IMG/VR virus record: IMGVR_UViG_3300042563_002292
Coordinates: 1-29,910 of that record
Reading direction: 5' to 3' (one strand)
DNA: 29,910 bases
Source of the DNA: a virus
Part shown: positions 757-29,773 of the stretch, piece by piece
Layout of the letters: every line of letters begins with the position of its first letter
Position numbering within the stretch: the stretch's first letter is position 1
Notes under the pieces: generated by a model
The model's database searches: none
What the model was told of the DNA's origin: nothing
Seen by the model: only the letters and a program-made list of their open reading frames with translations
Made by a program: the position numbers and the translations under genes

Positions 757-1502
757 AACAAGTTTCCCAAGGCTCTGGTCTACGGCGGTTTATGGTCGTA
801 GGCTGTTCTCACGGGATCTACGCTGACCCAAAGGCGGTCAAGGCGGTCTTGGACTTTAAGAAGTGGTTCAAGCCCCACACGGTCGGGCATCTAGGCGACT
901 TCACCGATATGTCCGCCCATATGGGTGGATCATCCGGGGAAGGTGACGCCATCAAGCCAGACCTGGACGGTGGCTTGGACTTCCTGAAGGAGCTGGGCGT
1001 AAATTTCGTGATGGAAGGTAACCACGAAGTGCGCCTCCGTCGTGATCTACGCTCTAGCAACCAACTTCGCGTTCGGGCAGCCGAGACTTCCCTTGAGGCG
1101 ATTGAGGCTACCTGCCTTAAGCTCCACGCCCTATATGTCCCATACACCGGGGTATGGCAGGTATACAAGATTGCCAATTACACATTTACGCACGGAACCA
1201 TTTATAACGAGAATTCCGCAAGAGATATGGCCGAGATGTACGGTAACGTAATCTTCGCCCATACCCACAAGCCGATGCAACAGATAGGCCGGCGCATCGA
1301 TTCCCCGGTAGGTATGTCCGTCGGTACGCTGACCCGCCGGGGGGCTATGGATTATGCCAACACCAGGCGTTCTACGCTTGGCTGGGGGCAAGGATTCGTC
1401 TACGGTGAATATAACGACAACGCCCTATACCCATCTCTGCACATCCACGACAACGGCGAACAATGGCATCTCCCAAAAAATCTGAAGCACAGAAGCTCCT
1501 AG
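753..1502 (+). CDS. Calcineurin-type metallophosphoesterase
   Basis: A 249-residue member of the metallophosphoesterase superfamily, which uses two metal ions to cleave phosphomono- or phosphodiesters. The ordered metal-binding motifs are visible: GCSHG at residues 17-21, GDFTD at 48-52, GNHE at 89-92, a His in THGT at about 147 and AHTH at 169-172. The first motif normally reads D-x-H; here the Asp is replaced by Cys, while the other ligands are kept. Phage-encoded enzymes of this class are often placed with DNA metabolism genes and may act on nucleic acid ends or signalling nucleotides, but the substrate is not readable. The start overlaps the previous stop in ATGA. Confidence 0.85.
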   Translation: MKQVSQGSGLRRFMVVGCSHGIYADPKAVKAVLDFKKWFKPHTVGHLGDFTDMSAHMGGSSGEGDAIKPDLDGGLDFLKELGVNFVMEGNHEVRLRRDLRSSNQLRVRAAETSLEAIEATCLKLHALYVPYTGVWQVYKIANYTFTHGTIYNENSARDMAEMYGNVIFAHTHKPMQQIGRRIDSPVGMSVGTLTRRGAMDYANTRRSTLGWGQGFVYGEYNDNALYPSLHIHDNGEQWHLPKNLKHRSS

Positions 1503-1717
1503 ACAAGATTCACGAACAGTATCTTTCTGAGAAGCAGGAGATTCCTGAGGGATTTTATACAATAGCACAATGGAAGAAGATTTGGGGCGTTGCTCGATCT
1601 TCCGTTGAGCGCTACATAGATTTTGCCTTGAAGAATAAATTGATGGAAATGCGTCGTTTTAAGATTGTCACGAAAGGCAGATATTGCACGGTGGCTCACT
1701 ACAAAGCCACCAGATGA
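1463..1717 (+). CDS. Small helix-turn-helix or winged-helix protein
   Basis: An 84-residue protein whose start lies inside the 3' end of the metallophosphoesterase gene (40-base overlap). Residues about 31-60 (FYTIAQWKKIWGVARSSVER) look like a helix-turn-helix with the conserved pattern of a recognition helix after GVARSSV. It is followed by a short basic segment that could be a wing (KIVTKGRYCTV). It probably binds DNA as a small regulator or replication accessory; no specific family is recognised. Its TGA stop overlaps the chosen ATG of the methyltransferase. Confidence 0.6.
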   Translation: MASPKKSEAQKLLDKIHEQYLSEKQEIPEGFYTIAQWKKIWGVARSSVERYIDFALKNKLMEMRRFKIVTKGRYCTVAHYKATR

Positions 1718-3672
1718 ATCCTATTTGTTTTAAAATCCGTGGGGGCGTAGAGCGTGAAGACGGCTCGCGAGGCTCAACCAACATCGGCAAGATGGCCGGT
1801 AAGGGATACCTTGGCAGCGAGAATAAATCCTTCACCGTACTAGCCACGCAAGATCAATACCTTTTTGCTGGACAAGGAAATAACAAGTCCACATACAACT
1901 CAACGACGCCACCAATGACCACGAAGAAAATGAAGTACCTATCGCTATTCAGCGGTATCGAAGCAGCCAGCGCCGCCTGGCATCCCCTCGGCTGGGAGCC
2001 TGTTGGTTTCGCCGAGATTGAACCTTTTCCTTCAGCCGTGCTGAAGCACCGTTTTCCCAACACACCCAACTATGGCGACATCACAAAATGGAAAGAATGG
2101 AATCTCACCCCCGGATCAGTTGACATTGTTTGCGCAGGAAGCCCCTGCCAGGCCTTCAGCGTCGCAGGTCTGCGGAAAGGATTGGACGATCCTCGTGGCA
2201 ACTTGGCACTCGTCACCCTCGGACTTGTTGAACACCTTCAACCCAAATGGTTCCTTTGGGAAAATGTCCCCGGAGTGCTTACAAGTAACGGAGGAAGAGA
2301 TTTTGCTGCCCTCATCACGGCATTGGGGAACATCGGGTATGGGTGGGCATACCGAGTCCTGGACGCTCAACACTTCGGAGTACCTCAACGGAGGCGACGA
2401 GTGTGGCTCGTCGCTACGCGAGGTGCTGCAAACTGGCCCCTTGCCGCAGCAGTACTATTTGACTCCGAAAGCTTGCGCTGGAATCCTCAAAAGGGCATCA
2501 AGGCGAGGAAAAGAGTTGCCGGATCTCCTGCGTCGAGCGCTGGAGGAGTCGGCAGCGAAGTTACCGCCTACGGAAGCAAGTCTCAGCCCGGAGTAGCCAA
2601 CACCCTTGAGACCACCTGCCACGACTACAGCCGTGCGGATGGTTTTAATATGGTCACCGAGCCTGTCGCCTTCCGCAAGTCAACCCGCGCCCAGTCTTCG
2701 GAACACCCGGAGACTTGGGTGGATGACGGCAAGGCTAACACGCTGAATGTCCACGACCAAGGGGATGTTCACACGACACACGCCGTGGTTGAACCTGTGA
2801 ACCCACAAGGCGTTGATCTTTACAATCAGACCATCACAGGCGACATTCACGTCCCGCTTCGGCCGGCCGGCGGTCACGGCGCACCAGCAGCCCTTGTCCA
2901 ACCCCAGGCATTCACGGTAAGGGAGGACAGTAAGAATGATACCTTTCACGCCAAACCTGTGGATGTCGCTTTGTGCGTCAACGCCCTGCAGCCTAGCCCG
3001 CAGTCCCAACACGCACAGAATTTTGTCGTACATTGTGCTGAAACGGCTCCGACGGTTACCCAGTCTGGCCCTCCGTTCTCCCGAACCGGGAACTCTCGCG
3101 TCGAGTCCGAGGCTATGGTAGTAACCGGGGAAGACCCTGTCACCTTTCAGCCTGGTAACCTTCGTCGCCACGCTGGCGCTGAACCCAACACGGAGGCTAC
3201 CACCACCCTCAAGGCTTCGTCCGGCGATCAGATGCCACACGTAGCCTATTCTTTCCGACCGAACGGCATTAGGATTGGCGATGGCATCAAGCTGGGAGAG
3301 GTTGCCGGAACCGTTATGGCTAACAGCAAGTCCGGCGATGCCGAGACCCATATACTGGCTCTTGATACTTATAATCAAAGCGTATCGATTACAAATCAAG
3401 CTCTTTCATCTTCGGCTTCAGATGTTAATCATTACGGAGCTGTATTTAATTCAACTATGATGGCGGTGCGTAGGCTCACACCTACCGAGTGTTTACGTTT
3501 GCAGGGCTTCCCTGACGGCTGGACGCAGATTCCTTGGAAGGGTAAGCCGGCCTCCGACTGCCCCGATGGCCCACAGTACAAGGCTATCGGAAACTCCTGG
3601 GCCGTGCCGTGCGCTCGGTGGATTGGTGAACGCATTGCAGAGGTCGAGCAAATCACCAATGGCGAAGCGTAA
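1714..3672 (+). CDS. C5 cytosine DNA methyltransferase, phage type with long variable insert
   Basis: Transfers a methyl group from SAM to C5 of cytosine in DNA. Counting from the ATG at 1714 (652 residues, chosen for the ATGA overlap) the motifs are: motif I LSLFSGIEA at about 76-84, catalytic SPCQ with Cys145, ENV at 183-185, QRRRRV at 225-230, motif IX near RRLTPTECLRLQGFPDGW and motif X YKAIGNSW close to the end. Between motifs VIII and IX lies an insert of about 300 residues of Gly/Ser/Thr-rich loosely repeated text (repeated A-x-T-L and V-A-Y/F units), which replaces the usual target recognition domain and is typical of phage members. Odd points are about 70 residues ahead of the usual MKYLSLFSGIEA start, and a second frame overprinted at 2072-2596. 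It could start instead at 1915 or 1930. Probable role: protection of phage DNA. Confidence 0.9.
   Translation: MNPICFKIRGGVEREDGSRGSTNIGKMAGKGYLGSENKSFTVLATQDQYLFAGQGNNKSTYNSTTPPMTTKKMKYLSLFSGIEAASAAWHPLGWEPVGFAEIEPFPSAVLKHRFPNTPNYGDITKWKEWNLTPGSVDIVCAGSPCQAFSVAGLRKGLDDPRGNLALVTLGLVEHLQPKWFLWENVPGVLTSNGGRDFAALITALGNIGYGWAYRVLDAQHFGVPQRRRRVWLVATRGAANWPLAAAVLFDSESLRWNPQKGIKARKRVAGSPASSAGGVGSEVTAYGSKSQPGVANTLETTCHDYSRADGFNMVTEPVAFRKSTRAQSSEHPETWVDDGKANTLNVHDQGDVHTTHAVVEPVNPQGVDLYNQTITGDIHVPLRPAGGHGAPAALVQPQAFTVREDSKNDTFHAKPVDVALCVNALQPSPQSQHAQNFVVHCAETAPTVTQSGPPFSRTGNSRVESEAMVVTGEDPVTFQPGNLRRHAGAEPNTEATTTLKASSGDQMPHVAYSFRPNGIRIGDGIKLGEVAGTVMANSKSGDAETHILALDTYNQSVSITNQALSSSASDVNHYGAVFNSTMMAVRRLTPTECLRLQGFPDGWTQIPWKGKPASDCPDGPQYKAIGNSWAVPCARWIGERIAEVEQITNGEA
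2072..2596 (+). CDS. Overprinted frame inside the methyltransferase gene
   Basis: A 174-residue open frame, +1 relative to the methyltransferase, covering the part of that gene from just after motif III to the end of motif VIII. Its C-terminal part reads like a real conserved domain, not shadow text: LPQQYYLTPKACAGILKRA followed by SRRGKELPDLLRRALE (residues about 124-159). From memory, phage proteins with a YYLSxxACxGILRRAxxRGKxLP signature are annotated as separate hypothetical proteins beside or within C5 methyltransferase genes, so the frame looks selected in both readings. An ATG at 2072 starts it without a clear Shine-Dalgarno. Function unknown. If not translated, the alternative is that the signature is forced by methyltransferase codons, which is hard to square with its conservation. 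Confidence 0.5.
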   Translation: MATSQNGKNGISPPDQLTLFAQEAPARPSASQVCGKDWTILVATWHSSPSDLLNTFNPNGSFGKMSPECLQVTEEEILLPSSRHWGTSGMGGHTESWTLNTSEYLNGGDECGSSLREVLQTGPLPQQYYLTPKACAGILKRASRRGKELPDLLRRALEESAAKLPPTEASLSPE

Positions 3673-3913
3673 GGTACAACTAGAGCCAAAAGAGATATTC
3701 AAGACGGCCATCGTCGGAAAGACTGACGATGGTCATCTGCTTTATTCTTATTACAGACTTATCTACTGCGTGATTGAGATCAATGATTTTAGTCCATTTG
3801 ATGCAAAGCAATGGGTTGACTATAATATTATGCCGATGTGTGAAGAGAGATGGTTCGGCGTAACATTCAATAAAAGATACGCTCGTAAAGGCTTGAACTT
3901 CTTCGAGGAGTAA
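3659..3913 (+). CDS. Small protein of unknown function
   Basis: An 84-residue protein; the ATG at 3659 overlaps the last codons of the methyltransferase (GGCGAAGCG region) and is preferred over the longer in-frame start at 3566, whose extra residues only mirror the methyltransferase C-terminus. The product begins with a basic segment (MAKRKVQLEPKEIF), has a hydrophobic and aromatic core (LLYSYYRLIYCVIEI) and ends with a basic stretch. No domain is recognised. Its position between the methyltransferase and the primase-helicase suggests a DNA metabolism accessory role, which is inference only. Confidence 0.6.
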   Translation: MAKRKVQLEPKEIFKTAIVGKTDDGHLLYSYYRLIYCVIEINDFSPFDAKQWVDYNIMPMCEERWFGVTFNKRYARKGLNFFEE

Positions 3914-3934
3914 TCAGATAAGCAAACCACAACA

Positions 3935-5923
3935 ATGACCGCCTCTGACAGAATCAAAGGTGCGAGGAACTATCTCGCCAAACTTCCACCAGCGGTATCC
4001 GGGCAAGGCGGACACCCAGCGACCTATCGGGCAGCCAGCATTCTGGCGCACGGATTTGAACTGGGATGGGACGACGCCTGGGCATTGCTTCAGGAATGGA
4101 ATATGTCCCATTGCTCACCTCCTTGGGGCGAGAAGGATCTTCGTCACAAGCTGAACGATGCCTACGTCAAGCCCCACGAACGCCCGAAGGGTTGGCTGTC
4201 CGGGCGTGAGCGAGCGGTAGGCTCTAATGGAAGGATGATGTTCGACCCGAAGAGAATTGCCGAGGTTGCATTTGGCTCCGTGTCGATGACGACCGCCGAC
4301 CTTCTGCTGGCTGCCTTCAAGGACGACGAGGTGGTCTGCATCACGAACGAGGCCGGTCAGAATGAAGACGGCAAGTACTTCCCGGCGTCAAAGGGTAACT
4401 TTCTCACGCGCGCCGAGTGGATCAAGCGGTTCTTCGGCCCTGACGCCAAGGGTAAGTCCTATTACGAAAGCGAAGATCAGGGAGCCTGGCTCCGCATCAA
4501 TCCGTTCAAGCCGGACGACTTCACCGGGACGGACACATCGGTGTCTTCATATCGCCACGTCTTGGTCGAGTTCGACAAGAAGAACAGGGAGGAGCAGATT
4601 GCTATCTTCCACCAGTCCAATCTTCCCATCACGGCGCTCATCGACTCCGGCGGTAAGTCCGTCCACGCTTGGGTTCGGGTGGATGCCGAGACCAAGGAGC
4701 AATGGGAGGAACGCCGTAATACGGTGTATGACTTCCTTGGAGATCACGAACCAGACCCCCAGAATAAAAACCCATCCCGCTGGTCTCGCCTAGGCGGGGT
4801 GATGCGTGGAGAGAAAGAGCAGAAGGTTCTGGCGCTCAAGGTCGGTGCGGAGGACTGGGACGCTTGGGTAATCTGGCGTGACGGTCACGACCTGCCCGAC
4901 GAGCTGCGAACGGACTTCCTTGAGACCTACGACACCCAGCACGACCCGAACCACGTCATCGGTCACGGACGCTGGCTGTGCCGTGGGGGTAGCCTTCTTA
5001 TCACCGGCCAGTCTGGTATCGGTAAGTCTTCCTTCACGATGCAGACCGCCTGTTCTTGGGCGCTAGGTCGTGAACTATTCGGCATCCCGGTGAAGCGCGC
5101 CCTCAAGGTCGGCGTCATCCAGGCTGAGTGCGATGTCGGCGACCTTGCCGAGTCCTATCAAGGGGTGACCTCTGCTATGAACTTGTCCAAGGATGACAAG
5201 GCGCTCCTGCGTGAGAACCTCCGCTTCTTCACCGAGACCACCAAGACCGGGAAGGACTTCGCAGACCTCGTCCGCAAGATTGTGGTTCGGATGCAACTTG
5301 ATGTCATCTTCTGCGATCCGCTGCTCTCCTATGTCGGCGGTGACCTATCCAAGCAGGAGGTGGCTTCCCATTTCCTCCGCAACCTTATCCAGCCCATCCT
5401 CAAGGACACCGGGTGCATCATCGTTTTCACCCACCACGAAGGTAAGCCGAAGCCCAAGGAGGTCACGGAGGGGCAGACTATCAGCGATATGGCATATTCC
5501 GGGCTTGGGAGTTCCGAACTCGTAAACTGGGCCAGAGCGATTATCAACGTCCGCCGGGAGTCCAAGGACTATCCCATCTTCTCGTTCAACCTTACCAAGC
5601 GTGGCAAGTTGGCGGGGATGCGGATGCCGGACGGCAAGCCTACCCTGTCCATCAAGTTGCGCCACGCCGAGGGCAAGGTGCTGTGGGAGGTCGCACCCCT
5701 GTCCTCCAAGTTTGAACTCCTCAAGGTCGGGGAGCAGTACGCCCACTTCGCCTCCAAGCCGTCCACCAGCCGGGGGGCGCTGATCAAGGAGCTGGAGACC
5801 GACTATGGTCTGAACCAAGACCAGGCACAGGCGGTCATCAAGGCTATGGTCACCAATGGCATCCTTACGCCTAAAAAGGTGGGAGCGACCCTGTTTTACT
5901 CTGGAACGACCCCCTCAGAATGA
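3935..5923 (+). CDS. Primase-polymerase/RepA-type helicase fusion
   Basis: A 662-residue multidomain replication protein. Residues 1-80 form a small helical domain (AVSGQGGHPATYRAA and PPWGEKDLRHKL) often found at the front of phage and mobile-element primases. Residues about 205-295 resemble the archaeo-eukaryotic primase fold: VEFD at 211-214, SGGKSVHAWVRVD at 238-250 with the S-x-H motif, and PSRWSRLGGVMRG at 280-292. Residues about 345-600 are a RecA-like ATPase of the RepA/DnaB-related class: Walker A GQSGIGKSS at 358-366, Walker B LDVIFCDP at 455-462 and THHEGK at 499-504. The last 60 residues look like a winged helix. It likely primes and unwinds phage DNA. The usual first acidic residue of the primase motif is Glu here instead of Asp. 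Confidence 0.85.
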   Translation: MTASDRIKGARNYLAKLPPAVSGQGGHPATYRAASILAHGFELGWDDAWALLQEWNMSHCSPPWGEKDLRHKLNDAYVKPHERPKGWLSGRERAVGSNGRMMFDPKRIAEVAFGSVSMTTADLLLAAFKDDEVVCITNEAGQNEDGKYFPASKGNFLTRAEWIKRFFGPDAKGKSYYESEDQGAWLRINPFKPDDFTGTDTSVSSYRHVLVEFDKKNREEQIAIFHQSNLPITALIDSGGKSVHAWVRVDAETKEQWEERRNTVYDFLGDHEPDPQNKNPSRWSRLGGVMRGEKEQKVLALKVGAEDWDAWVIWRDGHDLPDELRTDFLETYDTQHDPNHVIGHGRWLCRGGSLLITGQSGIGKSSFTMQTACSWALGRELFGIPVKRALKVGVIQAECDVGDLAESYQGVTSAMNLSKDDKALLRENLRFFTETTKTGKDFADLVRKIVVRMQLDVIFCDPLLSYVGGDLSKQEVASHFLRNLIQPILKDTGCIIVFTHHEGKPKPKEVTEGQTISDMAYSGLGSSELVNWARAIINVRRESKDYPIFSFNLTKRGKLAGMRMPDGKPTLSIKLRHAEGKVLWEVAPLSSKFELLKVGEQYAHFASKPSTSRGALIKELETDYGLNQDQAQAVIKAMVTNGILTPKKVGATLFYSGTTPSE

Positions 5924-9841: not shown

Positions 9842-9856
9842 TAGCCCCTAGTCAAA
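9842..9856 (-). promoter_or_regulatory. TTTGAC-N4-GGCWA element, copy A (upstream of tail fibre gene)
   Basis: Minus strand reads TTTGACTAGGGGCTA. It ends 11 bases before the fibre start codon, in a 37-base gap. A GGTATAGG follows. One of five exact matches to the word, all in minus-strand intergenic gaps. Function is inferred: promoter-like, activator box or leader RNA signal. Confidence 0.6.
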
Positions 9857-13628: not shown

Positions 13629-15044
13629 TTATTTTGCTACTGGGCCGTTGGTATCCACAGGGGCGGGGGTATTGTCGGTTCCTCCAGCGCCGTTTGCAAG
13701 CCTTTCGACGGCTTCGGCGGTACGCCGGGTGTTATCCGAGGTCTGCTGGGCGAAGTCAACGCGAGAGATAGCGGATAGGACGTCACCGCCACCGACCTGT
13801 TGCATCGTGGAGGCAGCCTGGAAGATCCCGGACTGGAGGTTGGGCTTGTTCTTGAGTTCCTCTTCGCGAACCTTGAGGAGTTCTTCATACACAGCCCTAG
13901 GCTTTTCTCCCATCTTTTCCTTGTCCTTGCCGTAGACTTGCTCGTACTTAGAGATGACATCGCTGGTAGTTTCACCTACGCCCCTAGTTCCGTAAGCCTC
14001 CAATTTAGTACTCTTAAAACCACCAATGGCGTTGAGAAGGAACCTGGAAATACTTTCGTCCTTTTTACCAAGAAGTGCATCAGCCCTTTGCTTTGCGGTA
14101 AGTCCAGAATGACCACCGTGAGGGTTGGCCATATCTTGAATAGAGGCTATGTCATTTTTGCCAAAACCCACCACAGACTCTACAAAGTTAGACCAGAAGG
14201 TCTTTCCGGTATTAGTAGCCATACGGCCGGCAGCCGATACGCCGGAGACGGTCGTTGTCTTTAGAACAGGGGCATTGTTAGCAATCTTCTCGATTTCAGC
14301 GCGACCCTGCCGGAGCATTGGGATCATCTGCTTAAAGGAGTCGCCGTAAAGTTCGTTACCGAGTCGAGCCATATCGGCTGTCTCAGCGTGTTTCTGGTAA
14401 GCATCGGCCATCTTTAGGATGACGTCCAGGGAGGAGATGCTATGGTCTCGGACGCCTTCGATGCTGATCCCAAGGCGTCGCATTGCGACGATGCCATTGC
14501 CACCCTCAAGAGCCATCTTACCCATCGCCTTGTTGCCATTTGCGATGGCGCTGACGAAGGTGTCAAACTCGACGCCGGACATCTTGGCAGCGTATCCGTA
14601 CTTCTGTACTTGCTCGACGGAAAGGTCGGTGATGCGAGCTGCTGCTTGGATTTTCTGGGCATACTCGATTCCCTCTTTGGTTCCTCTTACGCCGATGTTG
14701 ATGACCTGTTGAAGCAGATTAATTCCGCTCAACATATTCTCGGCTTCGTTACCTAGGTCTTTCTTAAACTGATCTCCCCAGCCTTTAGACCAAGGGTAGA
14801 TGTTTCCGCCCCCACCCCCACCACCCCCACCGCCCCCACCGCCGGAGCCTCCACCGCCAAATCCACCGCCGGAGCCTCCAGAACCCCCACCGCCCCCCCC
14901 GCCGGAAGGGCGAGGAGCGGTAGCGGTAGCAGTACCCCCAGAACCACCAGCGCCACCCCCGCCGACAGGGATCTGCGCCGGAACGGTAGCACCTTGTAGG
15001 CCGGTGGTATCGGCGACGAATTTAACTTTTACTTCGTCGCTCAT
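13629..15044 (-). CDS. Tail tape measure protein, short, with long glycine linker
   Basis: A 471-residue protein that would set tail length and act in DNA injection. The N-terminus MSDEVKVKFVADTTGLQGA is typical of tape-measure openings. Residues 28-80 are almost pure glycine with some Ser. Residues about 100-300 are helical with IQAAARITDLSVEQVQKYG and VEFDTFVSAIANGNKAMGK, phrases characteristic of tape-measure domains. The C-terminus (QQTSDNTRRTAEAVERLANG) is also typical. At roughly 1.5 angstrom per residue the length predicts a tail of about 70 nm, short for a siphovirus. It follows the chaperone-position gene with ATGA overlap. The glycine tract is unusual and explains the long open proline-rich frame on the opposite strand. 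Confidence 0.8.
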   Translation of the reverse strand: MSDEVKVKFVADTTGLQGATVPAQIPVGGGGAGGSGGTATATAPRPSGGGGGGGSGGSGGGFGGGGSGGGGGGGGGGGGGNIYPWSKGWGDQFKKDLGNEAENMLSGINLLQQVINIGVRGTKEGIEYAQKIQAAARITDLSVEQVQKYGYAAKMSGVEFDTFVSAIANGNKAMGKMALEGGNGIVAMRRLGISIEGVRDHSISSLDVILKMADAYQKHAETADMARLGNELYGDSFKQMIPMLRQGRAEIEKIANNAPVLKTTTVSGVSAAGRMATNTGKTFWSNFVESVVGFGKNDIASIQDMANPHGGHSGLTAKQRADALLGKKDESISRFLLNAIGGFKSTKLEAYGTRGVGETTSDVISKYEQVYGKDKEKMGEKPRAVYEELLKVREEELKNKPNLQSGIFQAASTMQQVGGGDVLSAISRVDFAQQTSDNTRRTAEAVERLANGAGGTDNTPAPVDTNGPVAK

Positions 15045-15610
15045 TTTTTCTTGGGGATATTCATTTTGTTTAGCATCTCCATCGCGGCCTTGTCACGGTC
15101 ATCGACGACATTGATGTCGGCTCCGGCAGCGATGGTGTTTGCGACGTAAAACCATACGGCTTCGGATTCCGGCATCGTCCAGGCTTTCTCATATTCGATG
15201 CCATTACGGATAAGGTTAGACACGCAGGACAGGACGGTTCCTACACCCCTGCCGTTGCCATTAGACTTCTTCTCCCAAAGGATAGGAGCGTTGTCTTGAA
15301 ATTTCAGATATTCGCAGAACTTCTTAAGCTCCTCGTTGTATTTTGCGGAATCCGTTAAGAGTAGCAAGAACGCCTGGGAGTCGATGTCGTTAGCCTTGAT
15401 CGAAAGCATTTCGCGCAGGTCATAGGTCGAAAGGATTCGACAGGCCAGGACTAGGTCTTGTGGCGACATCACTTTGTTGGTGAAAATCGCCGGAGACTCA
15501 ATCTCCGTTAGGATCAGCGTATGCCTAAGGCAGATAGGTTTAAGCTTACGACCACAGACCTCCATCTCCAAGATGGAAGTCTTGATAGCCTGTGTAAAGC
15601 GGTCGTCCAA
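15041..15610 (-). CDS. Probable tail assembly chaperone
   Basis: A 189-residue protein immediately before the tape measure, the gpG position. It starts with TTG at 15610; no ATG is available earlier in frame, and the first ATG would drop 15 residues. The text is helical and has the mixed-charge style of chaperones, ending YVANTIAAGADINVVDDRDKAAMEMLNK. Tail chaperones hold the tape measure during tail assembly and often use a programmed frameshift to make a longer form. I see no slippery heptamer or overlapping extension frame, so the frameshift product may be absent here. Role inferred from order and size. Confidence 0.55.
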   Translation of the reverse strand: MDDRFTQAIKTSILEMEVCGRKLKPICLRHTLILTEIESPAIFTNKVMSPQDLVLACRILSTYDLREMLSIKANDIDSQAFLLLLTDSAKYNEELKKFCEYLKFQDNAPILWEKKSNGNGRGVGTVLSCVSNLIRNGIEYEKAWTMPESEAVWFYVANTIAAGADINVVDDRDKAAMEMLNKMNIPKKK

Positions 15611-15625
15611 CGGCCGCTATTGCCG

Positions 15626-15958
15626 TTAGGCAATCTCCTGGTACTTGATTCCTCGGATGGACAACTTACGGTACTCTTGGTTAGAGCCTCGGTCGGTCAC
15701 TTCCTTGATAATAAAGACAAAACCGCCGTAATTGAGAGTCTGACCGGGTTCAACGGAGTCAAGAACCCTAATGACACCTTCGATGGTAATCTCGTTGCGC
15801 TCGTCGTCCAGGCGGTTCGTGATGACACGACCCTGCTCGTCCATCACTTCGACATCGAGGCCAAAGCGGACAGTCCAAGAATCGGATTGCACAACAACCC
15901 CGGTGACTTCGTCAAGGGGGCCGAAAACAAGGGCTTCGCCAAATTCAAAAAGAGCCAT
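15626..15958 (-). CDS. Small beta-rich tail protein, tail tube position
   Basis: A 110-residue protein with alternating hydrophobic and polar residues (GVVVQSDSWTVRFGLDVEVM, NEITIEGVIRVLDSVEPGQ, FVFIIKEVTDRGSN), a pattern of beta sandwich or barrel. It stands in the lambda gpV place between the tail terminator and the chaperone gene. It is shorter than most tube proteins, so it could be a compact tube subunit or another minor tail protein. A copy of the conserved intergenic word and a hairpin touching the start codon lie before it, consistent with special control of an abundant protein. Confidence 0.5.
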   Translation of the reverse strand: MALFEFGEALVFGPLDEVTGVVVQSDSWTVRFGLDVEVMDEQGRVITNRLDDERNEITIEGVIRVLDSVEPGQTLNYGGFVFIIKEVTDRGSNQEYRKLSIRGIKYQEIA

Positions 15959-15978
15959 AGTGGTAGATTATACCACTA
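15958..15978 (-). promoter_or_regulatory. 8-bp hairpin abutting the start codon of the tail-tube-position gene
   Basis: TAGTGGTA and TACCACTA are perfect 8-base arms around a 5-base loop (GATTA on the plus strand). On the minus strand the hairpin contains TATAAT and ends with the A of the ATG, so it could restrict ribosome access, or be an operator or -10 region. It overlaps the last two bases of the copy B element. Confidence 0.45.
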
Positions 15979-15991
15979 GCCGACTGTCAAA
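15977..15991 (-). promoter_or_regulatory. TTTGAC-N4-GGCWA element, copy B
   Basis: Minus strand reads TTTGACAGTCGGCTA, followed after four bases by GTATAAT. Its TGA is also the stop codon of the upstream tail-terminator gene. It ends 18 bases before the next start codon. Confidence 0.6.
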
Positions 15992-17738: not shown

Positions 17739-17753
17739 TTGCCTATGGTCAAA
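17739..17753 (-). promoter_or_regulatory. TTTGAC-N4-GGCWA element, copy D
   Basis: Minus strand reads TTTGACCATAGGCAA, directly after the T-run of the hairpin at 17757-17786 and 5 bases before the next ATG. Confidence 0.6.
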
Positions 17754-17756
17754 AGA

Positions 17757-17786
17757 AGAGGCCCACCACTTGTGTGGTGAGCCTCT
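17757..17786 (-). terminator. Rho-independent terminator after the major capsid gene
   Basis: Arms AGAGGC-x-CACCAC and GTGGTG-x-GCCTCT form 12 base pairs with one mismatch and a 4-base loop. On the minus strand it is followed by TCTTTTG. This would end or attenuate transcription coming from the capsid gene. Confidence 0.75.
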
Positions 17787-17801
17787 CTGCATTGGCGCGT
17801 C

Positions 17802-19232: not shown

Positions 19233-19247
19233 TAGCCGGGTGTCAAA
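19233..19247 (-). promoter_or_regulatory. TTTGAC-N4-GGCWA element, copy C
   Basis: Minus strand reads TTTGACACCCGGCTA. Its TGA is also the stop codon of the protease gene. It ends 15 bases before the scaffold start. Confidence 0.6.
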
Positions 19248-20061
19248 CGACGTACTCTGACAAGATGTCTTCCATACCGCTCACAACCCCGGTAACGAAG
19301 CCCTTTTCAGCGGCCTTTTTCCCCACGAAGGACTGACCTTCCATATCCTCGTCCTTGACGTACTTTCGGACGGATTTAACGGTCTCCTTGAAGGTCTTGT
19401 GGGTTTCATCGACATCATCCTGGAGGTACTTGCGCTGATCGTCCGAGAGGCTAGTGCCTTCCATCCCGATAGCCTTGTACTTGCCGGACTTAATAACCTC
19501 CATCTTGACGCCGTCCATCGCGTAGGCTTCGGACACATCGGGGAAGGCCATATAGACTCCGACCGAACCGATTTCTGCGGATTTGGTGATATTGAAGCGC
19601 TTGGCTTGCGAGCCAAGGTAATAGGCAGCGGAAAGACAGGCTTTCTCGCAGTATGATTCACAGTACTTCGGCATCGTGCGGATCTTCTCAGCCAGCTCGT
19701 CGAGACCGTCGGTGCTACCGCCGGGGGAATCGAAGTCCAAGACCACTTTCTCGACCGTGTGGTTGGCAAGCGCCTCGTCGATATTGGCGGAGATGTCTTC
19801 GACGTCCACGCCATTGCACATCTTCTCGATGTCCGATAGTCCGCGTCCAATGACACCCTTGACCGGGATGACGGCGGTCTTGCCGACAATCTCCATCTTG
19901 GGCTGTTCGCCAAACATCATCTTTAGGATTTCGGAGACCTCGGAGGCCTTGGTGTCCGTGGTGACCTCAAGCGCCTGGAAGCGGTCGATGTGGGACTTGG
20001 CAATAGATGGGTGGATCATCAGAGGCCGCCCGGTCTTCATCGCTTTGATAAGGTGTCGCAT
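19243..20061 (-). CDS. Phage prohead protease, S49 (SppA/ClpP-fold) family
   Basis: A 272-residue protein equivalent to lambda gpC, which cleaves scaffold and portal during capsid maturation. The family core is visible: VVLDFDSPGGSTDGL at 106-120, the catalytic Ser region ACLSAAYYLGSQ with Ser144, IGSVGVYMAFPD at 164-175 and SGKYKAIGM at 192-200 with the catalytic Lys most likely Lys196. A fused C-terminal scaffold, as in lambda gpC/Nu3, is absent; scaffold is a separate gene downstream. The leader is a nearly pure A/T tract (TTTTATTTTTTATTTTTTAT on the minus strand) with no Shine-Dalgarno. Confidence 0.9.
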   Translation of the reverse strand: MRHLIKAMKTGRPLMIHPSIAKSHIDRFQALEVTTDTKASEVSEILKMMFGEQPKMEIVGKTAVIPVKGVIGRGLSDIEKMCNGVDVEDISANIDEALANHTVEKVVLDFDSPGGSTDGLDELAEKIRTMPKYCESYCEKACLSAAYYLGSQAKRFNITKSAEIGSVGVYMAFPDVSEAYAMDGVKMEVIKSGKYKAIGMEGTSLSDDQRKYLQDDVDETHKTFKETVKSVRKYVKDEDMEGQSFVGKKAAEKGFVTGVVSGMEDILSEYVV

Positions 20062-22000: not shown

Positions 22001-22015
22001 TTGCCATCGGTCAAA
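22001..22015 (-). promoter_or_regulatory. TTTGAC-N4-GGCWA element, copy E
   Basis: Minus strand reads TTTGACCGATGGCAA, directly after a hairpin and a short TCCTTT tract, 6 bases before the next ATG. Same hairpin-then-element arrangement as copy D. Confidence 0.6.
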
Positions 22016-22019
22016 AGGA

Positions 22020-22086
22020 TAGCCTGTCCGCTACCAACAACGACACCGCTTGAGAGCCACCCAGGCGAATTATAGCGGACAGGCTA
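22020..22086 (-). repeat. 14-bp perfect inverted repeat after the large terminase gene
   Basis: TAGCCTGTCCGCTA at 22020-22033 and its exact complement at 22073-22086 enclose 39 bases. The distal arm includes the terminase stop codon. On the minus strand the structure is followed by TCCTTTTG, so it may work as a terminator with a large loop, or as an RNA structure or protein-binding site controlling the portal-capsid genes. Confidence 0.7.
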
Positions 22087-23946
22087 CTCCTTCACCTTTG
22101 GCTTATCTTCGGCATTGTCAACAGTCTTCTCGTCGGTCGCGTTCTTGTTCTTACCCCTACCGACCAGTTTAGCCATCAAGGCCGGCAGGATTCCCATAGT
22201 TTCACAGTCCCAGATATGGTTAGGCCGCTCGCCGATTTGAACCCAGACTGGCTTCCCGGCATCCGTTGTCGTGCGGTGTTCGGACTGCATCTGCTTGCGG
22301 TACTCGTCCCCGGCATCTTGGGCGTAGGTGTGGTGTCCCAATCGGCGTAGCCGGGTAAGGGTATCCTTTAGCACCAGATTGGAGTACATAAACATTCGGC
22401 AGGACTGCTTGCCGACTTGGATAATCTTCGCTGGGGCGTAGGGGCGGTAGGCCACCTTCAACCCATAGGGGGTCTGGACTCGCCAAGGGAACTCATTGTT
22501 GCCGGAGCCTTTCGTAGCGTTCCAGCCGTTGGTAGCGCAATTACGATAGACTTCGTCCATATTTGGGCCGTCGCCGGAGTCCACAAAAACGAAGTTGGGG
22601 CTTACCTTGTGCTTGATCTGTTCAGCTCGCACCTGCTCCCAAGTGTCCACATACCCCCACCAGATTAGCCTGGACTTGCCTTCTACGCTCCAGGAGCGGA
22701 CAAGGCAGAAGAACCCCTTTCGCTGTACGTCCACCGTGAGGAAGCGGAGCTTGATGAAGTTGGATGTGGTCAGCATCTCCTCCGTGTAAGGCGGAGGGGT
22801 AAGGCGACCTTGGTAGTTCGCCCCCTCATCCAGCCAGTCTTCCAACATCATATACCCGCTGGGTAGTACTTCTCCCCCGCCGTCATCCGGATCGTCGCTC
22901 CAGGGCAACGCTAGGCGCTTCTGCTTGAAGTCCCGGCGCTTGGTCTCGTCACCCCCTCCGTCAAAGGCTTGAGCTGCCTCGATGCACTCAACGGCTAAGT
23001 CCCCCCAAGAAAGCCCCCAGAGCATAGACAGGGCATTGAAGTGAAAACCCCGGCGACCTTTTGGTGCGGAAGGATTGAGGGGTACATACTCGGCGGTGGC
23101 AGCCATCTCTGCTCGGACGCTGTTGCGGTCGAGATAGGAGTGTTTGCAATGCTTGCACTCGTAGGTCGTGCCGGCCTTGACCTTGTCTAGATCCCAACCG
23201 TTGGCTGTCTTGGCTTCCTCCGGGTACTTAATCTGCACCCATTCAAAAGGCTGGCGGGTGTTGCACGACACGCAGGTGAACGACCATTCGCCCCGGTCTG
23301 TGGAATAAAATAAATCTGTGAACTCATCCCCATCCACGCCCCCCTGCGAAACGAACACGGACTTGCCCTGCCAAGTAAACGCCGTGCGTCGTGCAAGCGC
23401 TTGCTTGAGGTGACCTTTAGGCCATTGCCAGCACTCGTCACCACCCAAGAAACGAATGGATCGGCGTTGGAGATTGCGCTCATTGTTCGCACCTAGCACC
23501 CACGTCACATTGCGTTCAAACTGGGTGGTGTGCCACTTGCTACGATCAATCTGGGAAATGCGAGCCTTGGTGGACGGCGTGTTATCCCAAAGCGGACGGA
23601 GTCTTGTCTGCTGCCAGTCCTGTGCGTTCAAGTCCACGTCCTGGAGCAGGAGCATCGGGCCGGGTGTGCGCGACGGCACGAAGGCAGACCACAGCTCCAG
23701 CACCATAGACTTGCCGGACTGAACGTTGCCCATCACGACGATGGTCTCGACCTCTGGGTCTTGGAGCGCGCGGAGGATAGGCGCAAGATATGGAGTTGAC
23801 TCTATGCGGAACGGCCCCGGTTGTGGGGAGTAAGGCACATTCTTGATGTTCTTCTCCAACCAGTCGATGATGTCACCGTCCGGGTCTGGCGCAAGCAGAC
23901 TCCGAAGGGTGTTCTCAAACAGGGTCTCCGTCGGATTGGATTTCAT
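22084..23946 (-). CDS. Terminase large subunit, lambda gpA family
   Basis: The DNA packaging motor and nuclease, 620 residues from the ATG at 23946 (a start at 24021 would add 25 basic residues but overlap the small subunit by over 100 bases). ATPase: Walker A GNVQSGKS at 73-80, acidic GGDE at 168-171. A zinc ribbon with Cys225, Cys228, Cys264 and Cys267 separates the domains, as in gpA members. The nuclease begins at LRFLTVDVQRKG and includes VFVDSGDGPN. The C-terminus is basic (KLVGRGKNKN) then acidic. It cuts concatemers and pumps DNA into the prohead through the portal; a lambda-type enzyme suggests cos packaging, though no cos site was identified. Overlaps the small subunit gene by 32 bases. 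Confidence 0.95.
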   Translation of the reverse strand: MKSNPTETLFENTLRSLLAPDPDGDIIDWLEKNIKNVPYSPQPGPFRIESTPYLAPILRALQDPEVETIVVMGNVQSGKSMVLELWSAFVPSRTPGPMLLLQDVDLNAQDWQQTRLRPLWDNTPSTKARISQIDRSKWHTTQFERNVTWVLGANNERNLQRRSIRFLGGDECWQWPKGHLKQALARRTAFTWQGKSVFVSQGGVDGDEFTDLFYSTDRGEWSFTCVSCNTRQPFEWVQIKYPEEAKTANGWDLDKVKAGTTYECKHCKHSYLDRNSVRAEMAATAEYVPLNPSAPKGRRGFHFNALSMLWGLSWGDLAVECIEAAQAFDGGGDETKRRDFKQKRLALPWSDDPDDGGGEVLPSGYMMLEDWLDEGANYQGRLTPPPYTEEMLTTSNFIKLRFLTVDVQRKGFFCLVRSWSVEGKSRLIWWGYVDTWEQVRAEQIKHKVSPNFVFVDSGDGPNMDEVYRNCATNGWNATKGSGNNEFPWRVQTPYGLKVAYRPYAPAKIIQVGKQSCRMFMYSNLVLKDTLTRLRRLGHHTYAQDAGDEYRKQMQSEHRTTTDAGKPVWVQIGERPNHIWDCETMGILPALMAKLVGRGKNKNATDEKTVDNAEDKPKVKE

Positions 23947-24568
23947 CTGGTTTGTCTGTTGCGACCTCTTCCTTCGGAGTTTCCAGTACCACGATTTCCT
24001 GTACGGCCTCCTTGGCATCATCGGACTGACCCGCCAATCGGTTTAGGATATTGGTGATCTCCGTATCGATGGCTTTCATCGCCGTGCCTGGAGAATCCGG
24101 GTTAGCCTTGACGGCAATCTTCGTGGACAACTGGGTGAGTTCGTTGCGGATGGATAGGATGACCTTGCCAAATCGCTCGATGGCGGTCTGCGTCTTGATG
24201 TACTCTCTGGCAGCGATGTTGCGCGCGTGAAGTTCGCGTTCCAGGGCGACGAGGGTCTTGACCAGCTTGTCGTAGGTGGCGTAGCTCTTGGACTGGTTAG
24301 GGTCTTCGTTGCGAAGATCACGGCGGTACTGCTCGTAGGCTTCTGCCTTCAGTTGGCGGTGCTTCTCGACGATGGCTGCGAAGTCCTTGTCGGAGTCGTC
24401 CACCTGCTGGTCTGGCGTGAGGTTCTGATCCCGGCGAGCGGATCGTTCGTTGTACCAAGCCTCTGCTTCCTCGATACTGTTGGTGGGCATCCCCGAACGG
24501 ATGAAGCCGTTGATGGTCTGGCGCGCGAGTCCTAGTCGCTCGGCGATGTCTACAGGTCTGACACTCAT
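23915..24568 (-). CDS. Terminase small subunit-like DNA-binding protein
   Basis: A 217-residue protein directly upstream of the large subunit. Residues 1-40 are a clear helix-turn-helix (MSVRPVDIAERLGLARQTIN, then GFIRSGMPTN), the MerR/Nu1-like winged-helix pattern that selects the packaging site. A long charged helical region at about 65-170 would mediate oligomerisation. The tail is acidic. Gene order and fold make the small subunit the best call. Start overlaps the previous stop by 4 bases (ATGA). Confidence 0.8.
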   Translation of the reverse strand: MSVRPVDIAERLGLARQTINGFIRSGMPTNSIEEAEAWYNERSARRDQNLTPDQQVDDSDKDFAAIVEKHRQLKAEAYEQYRRDLRNEDPNQSKSYATYDKLVKTLVALERELHARNIAAREYIKTQTAIERFGKVILSIRNELTQLSTKIAVKANPDSPGTAMKAIDTEITNILNRLAGQSDDAKEAVQEIVVLETPKEEVATDKPDEIQSDGDPV

Positions 24569-25059
24569 TTCTTCTTGGTCATAGCCCTCTGACGAATCTT
24601 GTCACAGGTTGATTCAGTCCGCATATAGATGCTTGGTGCGATGCCTAGGCGCTTCTGGACTTTCTTAACGCGCCAAGAAATGGTCGCTTTGGAAACTCCG
24701 TATTTCTTGGCGACATCAGCCATCGACTTGTAGTTGCGGTATCCAAGGGCGATGCGGACGCAGTCGTTGTTCATCATCACCTTCGGCTCGAAATCGCAGT
24801 CGAAGGCGTCGATGACCTTGGCGATAATGGAGGCGAGTGATCCGTAGACGCCGGCCTTGCCGTCCTCGTCCTTGCGGAAAAACTCCTGCATCGACAGGCG
24901 GTTCTCGTAGGAGTCGCCGTAGATGTAGCGATGGGGCAGAGGAGGCTCGGCGTTGGTCGGGTTGCCTGGATCTACTCCGGCTGCCTTGAGCGCCTCCAGC
25001 TCCGCCGGGTGGAGCCGTGCGATGAACTTCTTCCACTCCGCTGACAGGGCGTCGCTCAC
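24565..25059 (-). CDS. Helix-turn-helix protein resembling sigma region 4, candidate regulator
   Basis: A 164-residue protein from the GTG at 25059, chosen because GTGA overlaps the previous stop; the longer frame from 25125 only adds shadow residues. Residues about 109-138 (YKSMADVAKKYGVSKATISW) form a strong helix-turn-helix followed by a basic helix (RVKKVQKRLGI), like the -35-binding part of sigma factors or phage late regulators. The middle (ENRLSMQEFFRKDEDGKAGV) is not recognised. Lying just upstream of the terminase, it may activate the late genes or assist packaging. Its link to the TTTGAC elements is a hypothesis. Confidence 0.6.
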   Translation of the reverse strand: MSDALSAEWKKFIARLHPAELEALKAAGVDPGNPTNAEPPLPHRYIYGDSYENRLSMQEFFRKDEDGKAGVYGSLASIIAKVIDAFDCDFEPKVMMNNDCVRIALGYRNYKSMADVAKKYGVSKATISWRVKKVQKRLGIAPSIYMRTESTCDKIRQRAMTKKK

Positions 25060-25265
25060 GGATTCTTGAACTTCTCTAATTGGTGGAGTACGAGCGTGAG
25101 TTCGGCAGCATCCTCGACCAGCCACTTTGCCCTATCCTTAGCCTTCTTGGTCAGTTTGTCGCTGGCTTGGGCGGCCATATATGCCTCGATGAGGTGCTGC
25201 GCGACATTGGATACGACCTCTTTCGAGGCGTCGAGCTGCTCCATTTCGGAAGTCGTGAATCTCAA
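25056..25265 (-). CDS. Small helical protein of unknown function
   Basis: A 69-residue protein with a TTG start; no better ATG lies in frame nearby other than one that removes seven residues. Highly helical with alternating charge (VVSNVAQHLIEAYMAAQASD, LVEDAAELTLVLHQLEKF). Stop overlaps the next GTG. Upstream of it on the minus strand is GGTATAATACC, a palindromic match to a -10 box, preceded by TTGACC. No family recognised. Confidence 0.55.
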   Translation of the reverse strand: MRFTTSEMEQLDASKEVVSNVAQHLIEAYMAAQASDKLTKKAKDRAKWLVEDAAELTLVLHQLEKFKNP

Positions 25266-25299: not shown

Positions 25300-25650
25300 T
25301 CAATGAATTTCACCGACGGTGTACATCGAGTTCTTGTCCTTGATGAAAAGGCCACGCCCGATGCAGAGCCTGACTAGACACCAGGCGCGGGTGGAGTTCA
25401 AGTCCTCGCCGTAGACGGAGTTCCAGTTCTCGGCGACCTGATCTCTGAGCCGGGTGGCGGTCATCGGTTCGGTCGGGAGCATATGGGTGATCGCCTGTAC
25501 CTGGCGCACCCGCTCGTCGGCCTTCATGATCTTGGCGGTGTTGAGGGCGTCCAGGTGGGAGGACATCGCCTCCCGCTTGTCGCGCCACTTAGCTCGCCAG
25601 TAGTTGGCGTAGTGGGGCCGGCGCTTCTTGTGTTTTGGGTCGTTGTTCAT
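25300..25650 (-). CDS. Small basic protein of unknown function
   Basis: A 116-residue protein with a basic, aromatic N-terminus (KHKKRRPHYANYWRAKWRDK) and a C-terminal half that could be a winged helix (ATRLRDQVAENWNSVYGEDL, then LCIGRGLFIKDKNSMYTVG). It may bind DNA. First gene of the leftward packaging and virion block, after 400 non-coding bases. Its leader is pyrimidine-only for about 25 bases and lacks a Shine-Dalgarno, with a hairpin just before it. One of only two CATG sites in the window lies in this gene. Confidence 0.6.
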   Translation of the reverse strand: MNNDPKHKKRRPHYANYWRAKWRDKREAMSSHLDALNTAKIMKADERVRQVQAITHMLPTEPMTATRLRDQVAENWNSVYGEDLNSTRAWCLVRLCIGRGLFIKDKNSMYTVGEIH

Positions 25651-25698: not shown

Positions 25699-25746
25699 CG
25701 AAGGGAGACGTACAGAAAGGGGAAGGGCGATAGCCCGACCTTTCTC

Positions 25747-25783
25747 AATATTACTATATAAGGCGCTAGCCTTATGTAATATT
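25747..25783. repeat. Bulged inverted repeat, AT-rich
   Basis: AATATTAC-TAT-ATAAGGC pairs with GCCTTATGTAATATT around GCTA, 15 pairs with the TAT bulge. No T-run follows on either strand, so an operator or structured RNA is more likely than a terminator. Confidence 0.55.
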
Positions 25784-26005
25784 ATGTTGGGATATATGAA
25801 ATGCTATATGCTTGGATATATGCAAGTCACAGATATACCGACGTATATCAAGAACAAGCATTTTCTGCACAATACCCCCGCCTTTTTTCCGGGGTGCAGC
25901 GTCTTCGACGCCCCCCTCCCCCACCCCCCCCTAAGAGATTCCTTGCGGGGGAGCTTGGGGCAGCCGGAGCCGGGGCCGGCTCGCCGAAGATCCCCGGAAA
26001 CGAAG

Positions 26006-28492: not shown

Positions 28493-28897
28493 ATGAATAC
28501 ACCCTACCAGTCACCGCTCGCTCAGGCTTTCCGCCTGGCTGAGAAGATCAACCTACGCTCCGGGAACGCTCTCCAGCAGTCCCAGGCTCTCCTGAAGATC
28601 ACAACGCCGGGACGCTTGCTACGCTCCGACCGCATCGCTCTCGACTATGTCGCTCGATCCGCCGACGAAGCCCAGGCTTCGGCTTGTGAGCTAGAGAAGA
28701 TCCTCGCCGACGCTCTCCCCTTGCTCGCCGACTACCAGGCGGCCGTCGAGCGTCAGGTCGCCGAGCTCGAAAGGGCCGCAACCTGTTGCGACACCTACAC
28801 GACGACCAGCGCACGACTTGAGAAGGCAGCCAACGCGAAAGCCGAGGCAGCCGTCGCTCTCGCCGAGTATCTCACTAACATCCGCCCGACGCTCTAA
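28493..28897 (+). CDS. Helical protein of unknown function
   Basis: A 134-residue protein, almost entirely alpha-helical and Ala/Leu/Glu-rich (RSADEAQASACELEKILADA, AAVERQVAELERAATCCDTY). A coiled coil at about 55-125 is likely. The ATG at 28493 has no close Shine-Dalgarno (AGGGAGG is 27 bases upstream). First gene of the rightward set, diverging from the 27860 gene. Stop is one base before the next ATG. Function unknown. Confidence 0.6.
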   Translation: MNTPYQSPLAQAFRLAEKINLRSGNALQQSQALLKITTPGRLLRSDRIALDYVARSADEAQASACELEKILADALPLLADYQAAVERQVAELERAATCCDTYTTTSARLEKAANAKAEAAVALAEYLTNIRPTL

Positions 28898-28898
28898 T

Positions 28899-29027
28899 AT
28901 GATCCTCCCCTTCTTCGAACCGAACCTCGACGGACTGACGAACGACGACCTGGCGGTCGTCGCCGTCGTCGCCTGGTTCGTCGTGGCGCTTCTCGCTCTC
29001 GCTCACTTCACCAGCATCCGCAAATGA
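28899..29027 (+). CDS. 42-residue single-pass membrane protein
   Basis: The ATG at 28899 follows the preceding stop by one base. An acidic N-terminus (PNLDGLTNDD) leads into one strong membrane helix at about 19-37 (AVVAVVAWFVVALLALAHF) and a short basic end (TSIRK). A longer in-frame start at 28818 would only add text from inside the previous gene. The stop overlaps the next gene in ATGA. It may anchor a partner at the membrane; role unknown. Confidence 0.6.
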   Translation: MILPFFEPNLDGLTNDDLAVVAVVAWFVVALLALAHFTSIRK

Positions 29028-29773
29028 TCACGGAAAAATTCCACGTTACCCCTAAGTCTTCCAACGCGAAGACCGGGGATATCGTCGTGACGACTTCGAC
29101 GGCGACGACCTGTCCCCCGGCGTGTCCCCTCAAGAAAGAATGCTACGCTAAGAGCGGCCCGCTCGCTCTCCATTGGGGAGCCGTGACGAAGGGCAGCCGA
29201 GGCTCGACCTGGGAGCCGTTCCTCGACGACCTGGAGCGAGCCGTGCGCAAGGCTCCAGCCGGCCAAGTGTGGAGGCTGAACCAGGCGGGCGACCTACCAG
29301 GCTCCGGCAACACGATTGACGGCTTCCGGCTTCTCGACCTGGTGCGCCTGAACGCTCGCTCCGGCGGTCGTGGCTTCACCTACACGCACAAGCCGATCCT
29401 GGCAGCCGACGCTCTCCCAGGCTCATCCGGCGTTTCCGACCTGAACCTTGCGCTGATCCGTCACGCGAACCGGGCCGGCTTCACCGTCAACCTTTCGGCT
29501 AACAGCCTGGAACACGCCGACCGCATTATCGACACGACCTGGCGAACCGGGGGCCGGCTCCCGGTCGTCGTCTTGCTCCCTTCCGACGCTCCGGCGAGCC
29601 TGGTAACCCCAGGCGGTCGCCGGGTCGTCACCTGTCCTGCCCAGTTACGCGAAGGGGTCACCTGCAAAACCTGTCGGCTCTGTAGCCGATCCGACCGCTC
29701 AGTCGTCGTCGGCTTCCGGGCGCACGGCTCCCAGGCTAAGGGGGCGAGCCGGATAGCCCAGGCGACCGCCTGA
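29024..29773 (+). CDS. Cysteine-cluster protein of unknown function (widespread phage/plasmid family)
   Basis: A 249-residue protein. Two cysteine groups stand out: Cys30, Cys34 and Cys40 (TTCPPACPLKKECYAKSG), and Cys204 with Cys214-x2-Cys217-x2-Cys220. Between them are conserved-looking blocks: RLNQAGDLPGSGN at 84-96, GRGFTYTHKP at 115-124 and FTVNLSANSLEHADRI at 153-168, ending with VVVGFRAHGSQAK. From memory this matches an uncharacterised family found in phages and plasmids. The first cluster is of the kind that can bind an iron-sulphur centre, as in radical-SAM-like proteins and the phage Gp37/Gp68 group, but the spacing is C-x3-C-x5-C, not the canonical C-x3-C-x2-C. Metal binding is inference. 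Coupled to the membrane peptide gene by ATGA. Confidence 0.75.
   Translation: MITEKFHVTPKSSNAKTGDIVVTTSTATTCPPACPLKKECYAKSGPLALHWGAVTKGSRGSTWEPFLDDLERAVRKAPAGQVWRLNQAGDLPGSGNTIDGFRLLDLVRLNARSGGRGFTYTHKPILAADALPGSSGVSDLNLALIRHANRAGFTVNLSANSLEHADRIIDTTWRTGGRLPVVVLLPSDAPASLVTPGGRRVVTCPAQLREGVTCKTCRLCSRSDRSVVVGFRAHGSQAKGASRIAQATA

Follow-up and report, generated by a model that had tools for sequence, protein, structure and literature searches.

What switches on the late genes of an uncultured phage whose structural units are headed, one after another, by the same short sequence? This question is raised by the 29,910-nt IMG/VR record IMGVR_UViG_3300042563_002292, analyzed over its whole length and referred to here as the window, in which the gene at 24565-25059 (minus strand; GTG start, 164 amino acids plus stop) encodes a helix-turn-helix (HTH) protein beside the terminase genes. 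The initial annotation had proposed this protein as a possible late regulator acting on TTTGAC-N4-GGCWA elements downstream, and we find that proposal probably right in kind. The reading that we favor, with moderate confidence and on the strength of sequence comparison, is that the HTH protein is a phage late-transcription specificity factor that reads a ~20-bp late promoter at the heads of gene units with near-leaderless starts. To our knowledge, the late regulators described so far come mostly from E. coli and Gram-positive phages; in the present case, dozens of contigs of uncultured phages allow a regulator gene to be followed together with its probable promoter word.

The window contains five exact copies of TTTGAC-N4-GGCWA, all on the minus strand, which is the late-gene strand, compared with a mean of 0.04 and a maximum of 1 in 100 shuffled windows. 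When up to two mismatches are allowed, 22 copies are found against 11.8 ± 3.3 expected, and single inexact copies therefore mean little. Each of the five exact words stands at the start of a late gene unit. On the minus strand, TTTGACCGATGGCAA (22001-22015) lies before a gene that appears gpW-like by eye (start 21994) and is followed by portal and protease genes; TTTGACACCCGGCTA (19233-19247), whose TGA doubles as the stop codon of the protease gene (19243-20061), lies before a gene that appears scaffold-like by eye (start 19217) and then the major capsid gene; TTTGACCATAGGCAA (17739-17753) lies before the gene starting at 17733; TTTGACAGTCGGCTA (15977-15991), whose TGA is likewise the stop of the preceding gene, lies before the unit of the tape measure gene (start 15958); and TTTGACTAGGGGCTA (9842-9856) lies before a fibre-like gene (start 9830). 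Counted from the first base of the word to the A of the start codon, the distances are 21, 30, 20, 33 and 26 nt, respectively. A perfect hairpin, AGTGGTA-TAATC-TACCACT (15958-15978), separates the fourth of these words from the start of its tape-measure unit and is also seen in L002, L004 and L007; a perfect inverted repeat, ATTGCC-N4-GGCAAT (15619-15634), lies just before the 189-aa gene at 15041-15610.

Related loci were collected with a profile of the terminase large subunit, TerL (best 80 of 191), and with HTH-protein profiles (27 and 47, overlapping). Whole-record searches of 14 of the 18 first-scan loci recovered the word in 14/14, in one orientation per record, and a reversed control pattern gave no match in those 14 whole records. 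To count unit heads, we used one relaxed word pattern together with an in-frame start 15-49 nt downstream and covered four units, the fifth, fibre-like unit being left out. The relaxed word was present at 227/232 starts of these units versus 18/619 starts of eleven other genes, with 83/85 for the gpW-like unit, 57/57 for the scaffold-like unit, 46/48 for ‘SIW’ (start 17733 in the window) and 41/42 for ‘ALF’ (start 15958 in the window). Thirteen of the 18 matches away from unit heads fall before the protease gene (13/69 loci, all at 30 nt) and five before TerL (5/86); none was found before the capsid gene (0/53) or before the gene of the terminase small subunit, TerS (0/75 starts). Among the five missed heads, L025 has a word but fails the start rule, L016, L017 and L050 have TTGGAC for TTTGAC, and L093 has CTTGACAGTGAGGCACAA. 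A degenerate form of the word scanned over whole genomes was set aside as too loose, with many control matches.

The words could in principle be operators and the protein a repressor. With its TTGAC-N4-GGCAA, the word forms an imperfect inverted repeat, which by eye comes close to perfect symmetry in one unit of L089, and operators commonly overlap start regions; yet exact words point one way within the record in 15/15 records, a uniformity that an operator does not need, and there is no conserved promoter to block, so that we regard repression as very unlikely.

The word itself differs between clades. In the window's clade it reads TTTGAC-N4-GGCWA, rarely with GGCCA, and its four middle bases vary; it is CTTGAC-N4-GGCMA in L024 and L027-L029, TTTGAC-N4-NGCTA in L041 and L090, mostly NTKACA-N3-GGCTAAAnCCA in L057-L067, NTTKAC-N4-GCGTWAA in L089, and YTTGACTCCCGCGTAG in L095-L099, which were reached by TerL. 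These clade-specific variants are alike at the different units of one clade. Units agree in the word blocks, which some clades extend briefly on the 3′ side as far as position 20 or so; upstream, agreement is limited to scattered single positions. Because the words vary by clade, and do so consistently across that clade's units, these clade-specific words with agreement confined to blocks argue for a phage-encoded reader. A palindromic reading of the word was also considered and rejected, since by eye the half-sites seem to have no one common center between clades.

Co-occurrence of HTH gene and word was among the checks suggested by the initial annotation. An HMM search found an HTH homologue in 84/105 sequences, contig duplicates and the Verrucomicrobia phage P8625 being counted in. 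For the gene neighborhood, we dropped 14 duplicate loci, P8625 and five sub-loci of the window, leaving 90 loci, of which 25 lacked TerS or had less than 650 nt before it. Among the 65 evaluable loci, the HTH gene lies on the same strand within 700 nt before TerS in 60, lies farther upstream of TerS in two (L077, L084), and is missing in three (L093, L096, L099). The fragments L096 and L099 have the word of a sister clade; in longer genomes where this word occurs, the HTH gene is found at another place. L093 is a 7.5-kb contig whose TerL is 48% identical and which has only the atypical word CTTGACAGTGAGGCACAA; no HTH homologue was found in the 3.4 kb before its TerS, and it stays an unexplained exception.

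The sister clade could be approached solely from its word, TTGACTCCCGCGTAG. When viral contigs were scanned with this query, which includes fixed middle bases, 54 stretches were returned, from which 11 records, mostly the longest, were picked. A diverged HTH homologue was found in 6/8 records with several words (G032-G035, G037, G042; E 9e-32 to 5e-27), and the HTH profile found no homologue in the three single-word records. The two multi-word records without a homologue, G036 (31.3 kb) and G038 (22.3 kb), have five words each. In G032 and G033 the HTH gene ends ~4.14 kb before the first word, whereas the sequence available before the first word is 4084 nt in G036 and 265 nt in G038; both of these latter records seem to end before the place of the HTH gene. 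Gene and word thus occur together in a large family that takes in a sister clade found by word alone, and a word-bearing genome without the gene, the observation named beforehand as speaking against the proposal, was not clearly encountered, L096 and L099 being fragments, with only L093 left over.

In the sister clade the HTH gene is not beside TerS and has other genes downstream of it: in G032 it is followed by a gene that appears ParB-like by eye, and in L099 a ParB-like gene lies upstream of another gene and TerS. The company of HTH gene and word in this clade is therefore not explained by the TerS neighborhood. This bears on a further explanation, in which the HTH protein works alongside TerS and TerL in DNA packaging, the words being read by some other factor. 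That the gene adjoins TerS in 60 of the evaluable loci, and overlaps it in the window, would suit a packaging role; but the sister-clade gene accompanies the word away from TerS, and the words stand at unit heads rather than at one packaging site, which makes this explanation highly improbable. TerS also has an HTH-like N-terminus and may itself be the word reader.

Within the window, the HTH gene belongs to an apparent minus-strand operon (25650-22084) composed, in order, of a 116-aa gene (25300-25650; homologue in 71/105 sequences), a 69-aa gene (25056-25265; no family above the cut-off in Pfam or PHROGs), the HTH gene, TerS (23915-24568; PHROG 57, E 7.9e-11) and TerL of the GpA type (22084-23946; PF05876 E 2e-35, PF20454 E 6e-17, both scored on the ORF 22084-24021, with the start at 23946 chosen). 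The 69-aa gene and the HTH gene overlap by GTGA, and the stop of the HTH gene and the start of TerS have ATGA in common. The coupling to TerS described by the initial annotation is thus real, as is the position beside TerS, where late regulators are often encoded; its placement at the head of the structural block applies in part, the HTH gene being third in the apparent operon and not first. In L082 and L091, a gene that appears PAPS-reductase-like by eye lies between TerS and TerL.

Upstream of this operon, the window has a long palindrome, AATATTACATAAGGC-TAGC-GCCTTATATAGTAATATT (25735-25790), and at the matching place L024, L028 and L029 have a palindrome of different sequence by eye. Within it lies a word-like sequence with two mismatches, TATTACATAAGGCTA (25767-25781, minus strand), which overlaps a weak σ70-type match (ATTACA-16-TATAGT) and is possibly an autoregulatory site or a plain promoter. 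Sequences of this type occur 153-177 nt before the operon in the window, L001-L008, L010, L011, L041 and L044 and were not found at that place in the other loci listed. A separate candidate for an early promoter, TGGTATAAT ending at 25286, was rejected because none of the 21 other loci checked retains it; a different TGnTAnnnT occurs in L054.

We next consider whether the product is the kind of protein that could read DNA. An AlphaFold2 model built from 46 sequences has a middling mean pLDDT of 69.7, with 82-89 (ten-residue means) in the HTH part and less than 50 at residues 41-65 in model numbering. Residues are otherwise numbered here on the full-length protein with V/M as 1, the model and alignment numbering being one lower. 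The HTH claimed for this protein is present at about residues 113-138 (24646-24723, minus strand; model helices 112-119 and 123-137 in model numbering), and its recognition helix, residues 124-138 (24646-24690, minus strand), contains SKATISWRVKKVQKR and W129. Profile searches gave only weak HTH matches in PHROGs (best E 5e-4) and NCBIfam, and in Pfam the best hits were HTH domains below their cut-offs, among them HTH_50 (E 3e-5, 24.1 of 27 bits). The sigma region 4 profiles stayed below their curated scores on this protein (PF04545, Sigma70_r4: E 0.22, 11.5 bits against a cut-off of 24.1; TIGR02937: 13.5 of 42.9 bits).

Structural comparison gave a similar picture. Sigma32 and sigmaA chains lead the Foldseek matches of this model, at E 0.096 and up, with no PDB match at E ≤ 0.001, and an earlier, poor model from 14 sequences (mean pLDDT 55.3) matched response-regulator and LuxR/NarL types first, none below E 1. 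In VIA-align, sigma region 4 is matched at Z ~5 over ~66 residues, NarL/LuxR-type domains tie with it, and an unrelated helical protein scores higher, at Z 5.7. In a viral structure library, five proteins of uncultured phages matched at E ≤ 0.001, four of them uncharacterized and one called an HTH protein. The models thus support a protein that is DNA-binding by fold, as anticipated, and not of an unrelated type; its likeness to sigma region 4 in particular is weak, since the Z of ~5 is common to NarL/LuxR-type domains and the best Foldseek E is 0.096.

What kind of transcription or translation signal the words might be can be approached from their surroundings. The distance from the first base of the word to the start codon is 20-38 nt in the 227 unit heads and never below 20. 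Among 74 sister-clade contexts, where the first ATG was taken without a gene check, it lies at exactly 20 in 38, all with TTTGAC, and at 31-37 in 30, all with CTTGAC; the other six look like chance. Because only the lower edge of the distances is sharp, they are more suggestive of transcription beginning near position 20 than of a spacing set by the ribosome.

Alternatively, the word could function at the RNA level, as a translation signal that the ribosome or some other factor recognizes in place of a Shine-Dalgarno sequence, with the HTH gene as a mere companion. None of the five word-headed genes has a Shine-Dalgarno match, the position of the word ahead of the start codon is tightly constrained, and in some clades the word can be drawn by eye as a weak hairpin. 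Such a match is missing at 20/24 window starts checked, though, with or without a word; the distances have the one-sided edge described above, and the words vary by clade and accompany the HTH gene even away from TerS. We therefore judge an RNA signal improbable.

Around the words, no −35 or −10 is conserved between units, and the seven consensus promoters of the window (8.6 expected) overlap none of the five. An ordinary σ70 promoter at the words was rejected, since there is no agreeing −35/−10 and, with TTGAC as the −35, transcription would begin within the gene. Sigma region 2 (PF04542), sought in the HTH protein and elsewhere in the phage, was found in 0/14 records, some of them incomplete, with controls matching in 10/14 genomes; a T7-type polymerase (PF00940) was found in 0/18 records, some incomplete, with the T7 control at E 1e-109. 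With a start near position 20, TTGAC would span roughly −19 to −15 and the second block roughly −10 to −6. This placement fits no σ70 promoter that we know of, nor is sigma region 4 known to bind ~15-19 bp before a start codon. The second block of the sister clade, GCGTAG, has a high GC content and does not resemble a −10. As promoters, the words would be unusual.

Could the protein instead be an antiterminator of the Q/AlpA type, loaded at words in late promoters and riding the polymerase past terminators? It is small, and the AlpA complex (7xyb; VIA-align Z 5.3 over 54 residues) is among the best structural rows; AlpA and 21Q, as presented in PMC9371919, likewise have a C-terminal HTH and a site in the promoter region, the AlpA binding element lying within the AlpA promoter. 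That element is placed between −35 and −10 in the same source (PMC9371919), but the words here are without a conserved σ70 promoter or overlap with a consensus one. Antiterminators of this type also form an N-terminal ring in the RNA exit channel; in the HTH protein, model residues 41-65 are of low confidence. Moreover, the terminator-like hairpin stands before the word and not after it: after the major capsid gene, a hairpin (17756-17787, minus strand; −26.2 kcal/mol), terminator-like by eye and not listed by a consensus terminator scan of the window, is followed by CTTTT running directly into TTTGACCATAGGCAA, and several relatives have similar hairpins by eye, with longer T-runs, after the capsid gene. 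Four or five sites per genome are also unlike the single antiterminated late promoter of lambda. Antitermination is accordingly an unlikely role.

We return to the HTH protein as late-transcription specificity factor, probably the late-gene switch and, judged from its sequence context, the best candidate for a late regulator. What we infer comprises word reading by this protein, activation, the start site and the identity of the polymerase. The factor, encoded with the terminase genes, would bind the TTGAC half of a ~20-bp late promoter through its C-terminal, sigma-region-4-like HTH; this promoter would be TTTGAC-N4-GGCWA or a clade variant, one at each late unit head. The factor would direct RNA polymerase, probably that of the host, to start transcription ~20 bp downstream of the first base of the word, at or just before the start codon, and late mRNAs would be leaderless or nearly so. 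A more specific version is doubtful, and we offer it tentatively: a stand-alone region-4-like protein alone might set the specificity of a non-canonical initiation complex, with TTGAC 15-19 bp and not 35 bp before the start, a second block around −10 that in some clades is not AT-rich, transcription beginning at the A of the AUG, and leaderless late mRNAs in hosts that manage without Shine-Dalgarno sequences. If this start-site geometry is true, initiation would follow a mode that fits neither a σ70 promoter nor a T7-type polymerase, with a bearing on virion gene expression in phages without Shine-Dalgarno sequences.

Because several natural versions of the HTH gene and the word exist, specificity can be tested by swapping, and we asked which residue might read which base. 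In an ungapped alignment on sigma region 4.2, W129 falls on what we take to be Q589 of E. coli σ70. Position 0 of the word is T in 50/52 deduplicated unit sequences with W or Y at residue 129, compared with 8/47 with L, A or R; L003 and L049 have one C0 word each despite W129. Position 3 is G in 52/52 with W/Y129 and otherwise G in 35 and T in 12. The sister clade, outside these counts, has L or Q at the place of residue 129, and its words have T or C at position 0. Both traits are scored in 64 of the 87 rows of a TerL tree: 31 combine an aromatic residue with T0, 27 have neither and 6 are mixed. Along this tree, the residue trait changes three times and the word trait six. In three independent pairs that differ at residue 129 the word follows in 2.4 on average and never goes in the opposite direction; conversely, among five pairs with different words, the residue changes accordingly in 2.4. 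With only three residue changes on the tree, the correlation is not significant and cannot reach 0.05, so residue 129 reading position 0 is a lead only, and recognition of the word by the HTH protein, as first proposed, is hinted at by this covariation over three changes.

The nested clade with CTTGAC words offers a second comparison. Among eight proteins, the HTH protein has the highest share of substitutions diagnostic of this clade (18/146 columns), against 17/205 in TerS, 18/597 in TerL and 0/297 in the capsid protein. We rejected a concentration of these substitutions in the recognition helix, which has 3/15 residues affected against 15/131 other columns.

Among known systems, the HTH protein would work like RinA/Ltr of staphylococcal phages, with membership of that group unproven and promoters that look different. 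The regulator gene of RinA/Ltr/ArpU phages lies directly upstream of terS, as it does here in 60/65 loci and not in the sister clade; their regulated promoter lies directly downstream of the regulator, whereas here the word is rare at TerL starts and lacking at TerS, and four or five dispersed words head separate units instead. In NCBIfam, which we take to include RinA/Ltr/ArpU models, no such family is among the matches of the HTH protein up to E 5. In the Ltr promoter of phi13, a TATA box is accompanied by four direct repeats (PMC13123087); neither is seen at the words. In T4, as outlined in PMC7403470, AsiA/MotA offers a likeness, a phage DNA-binding factor giving the host polymerase a new upstream element that replaces the −35. 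The words here are without a −10 at the usual distance. MotA promoters, in contrast, retain theirs.

Topic searches of the literature, mostly in non-subscription papers and without the word as query text, returned nothing on the HTH protein or the word. Relatives of the HTH protein come from IMG/VR contigs only: INPHARED has none at E 0.01, and pattern-based scans of GTDB cellular genomes with HTH and TerL profiles confirmed none. The best named record by TerL is phage P8625 (NC_029047; L034), at 24.8% identity, in which no HTH homologue was found; with the nearest named record lacking the gene and relatives in IMG/VR only, the host is only a guess. P8625 also has, by eye, repeated promoter-like elements closely before several late starts, but these are TTGACA-N17-TATTGG-like, with ordinary σ70 spacing, and by eye look like ordinary σ70 promoters giving leaderless or near-leaderless mRNAs. 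They stand before 5448, 10772, 15594 and 17541, some with an inverted repeat GTATCCA..TGGATAC by eye; the term ‘promoter’ is absent from the main text of the P8625 paper (PMC4642752).

Elsewhere in the window, the gene at 1684-3672 encodes a DNA methyltransferase whose Pfam C5 methylase match falls in two stretches, as if it held a long insert. Genes at 28493-29773 and 12-5923 run on the plus strand and those at 27860-6258 on the minus strand, directions that would fit a circular map with a rightward block across the contig ends and a leftward block, so that the record may be nearly complete.
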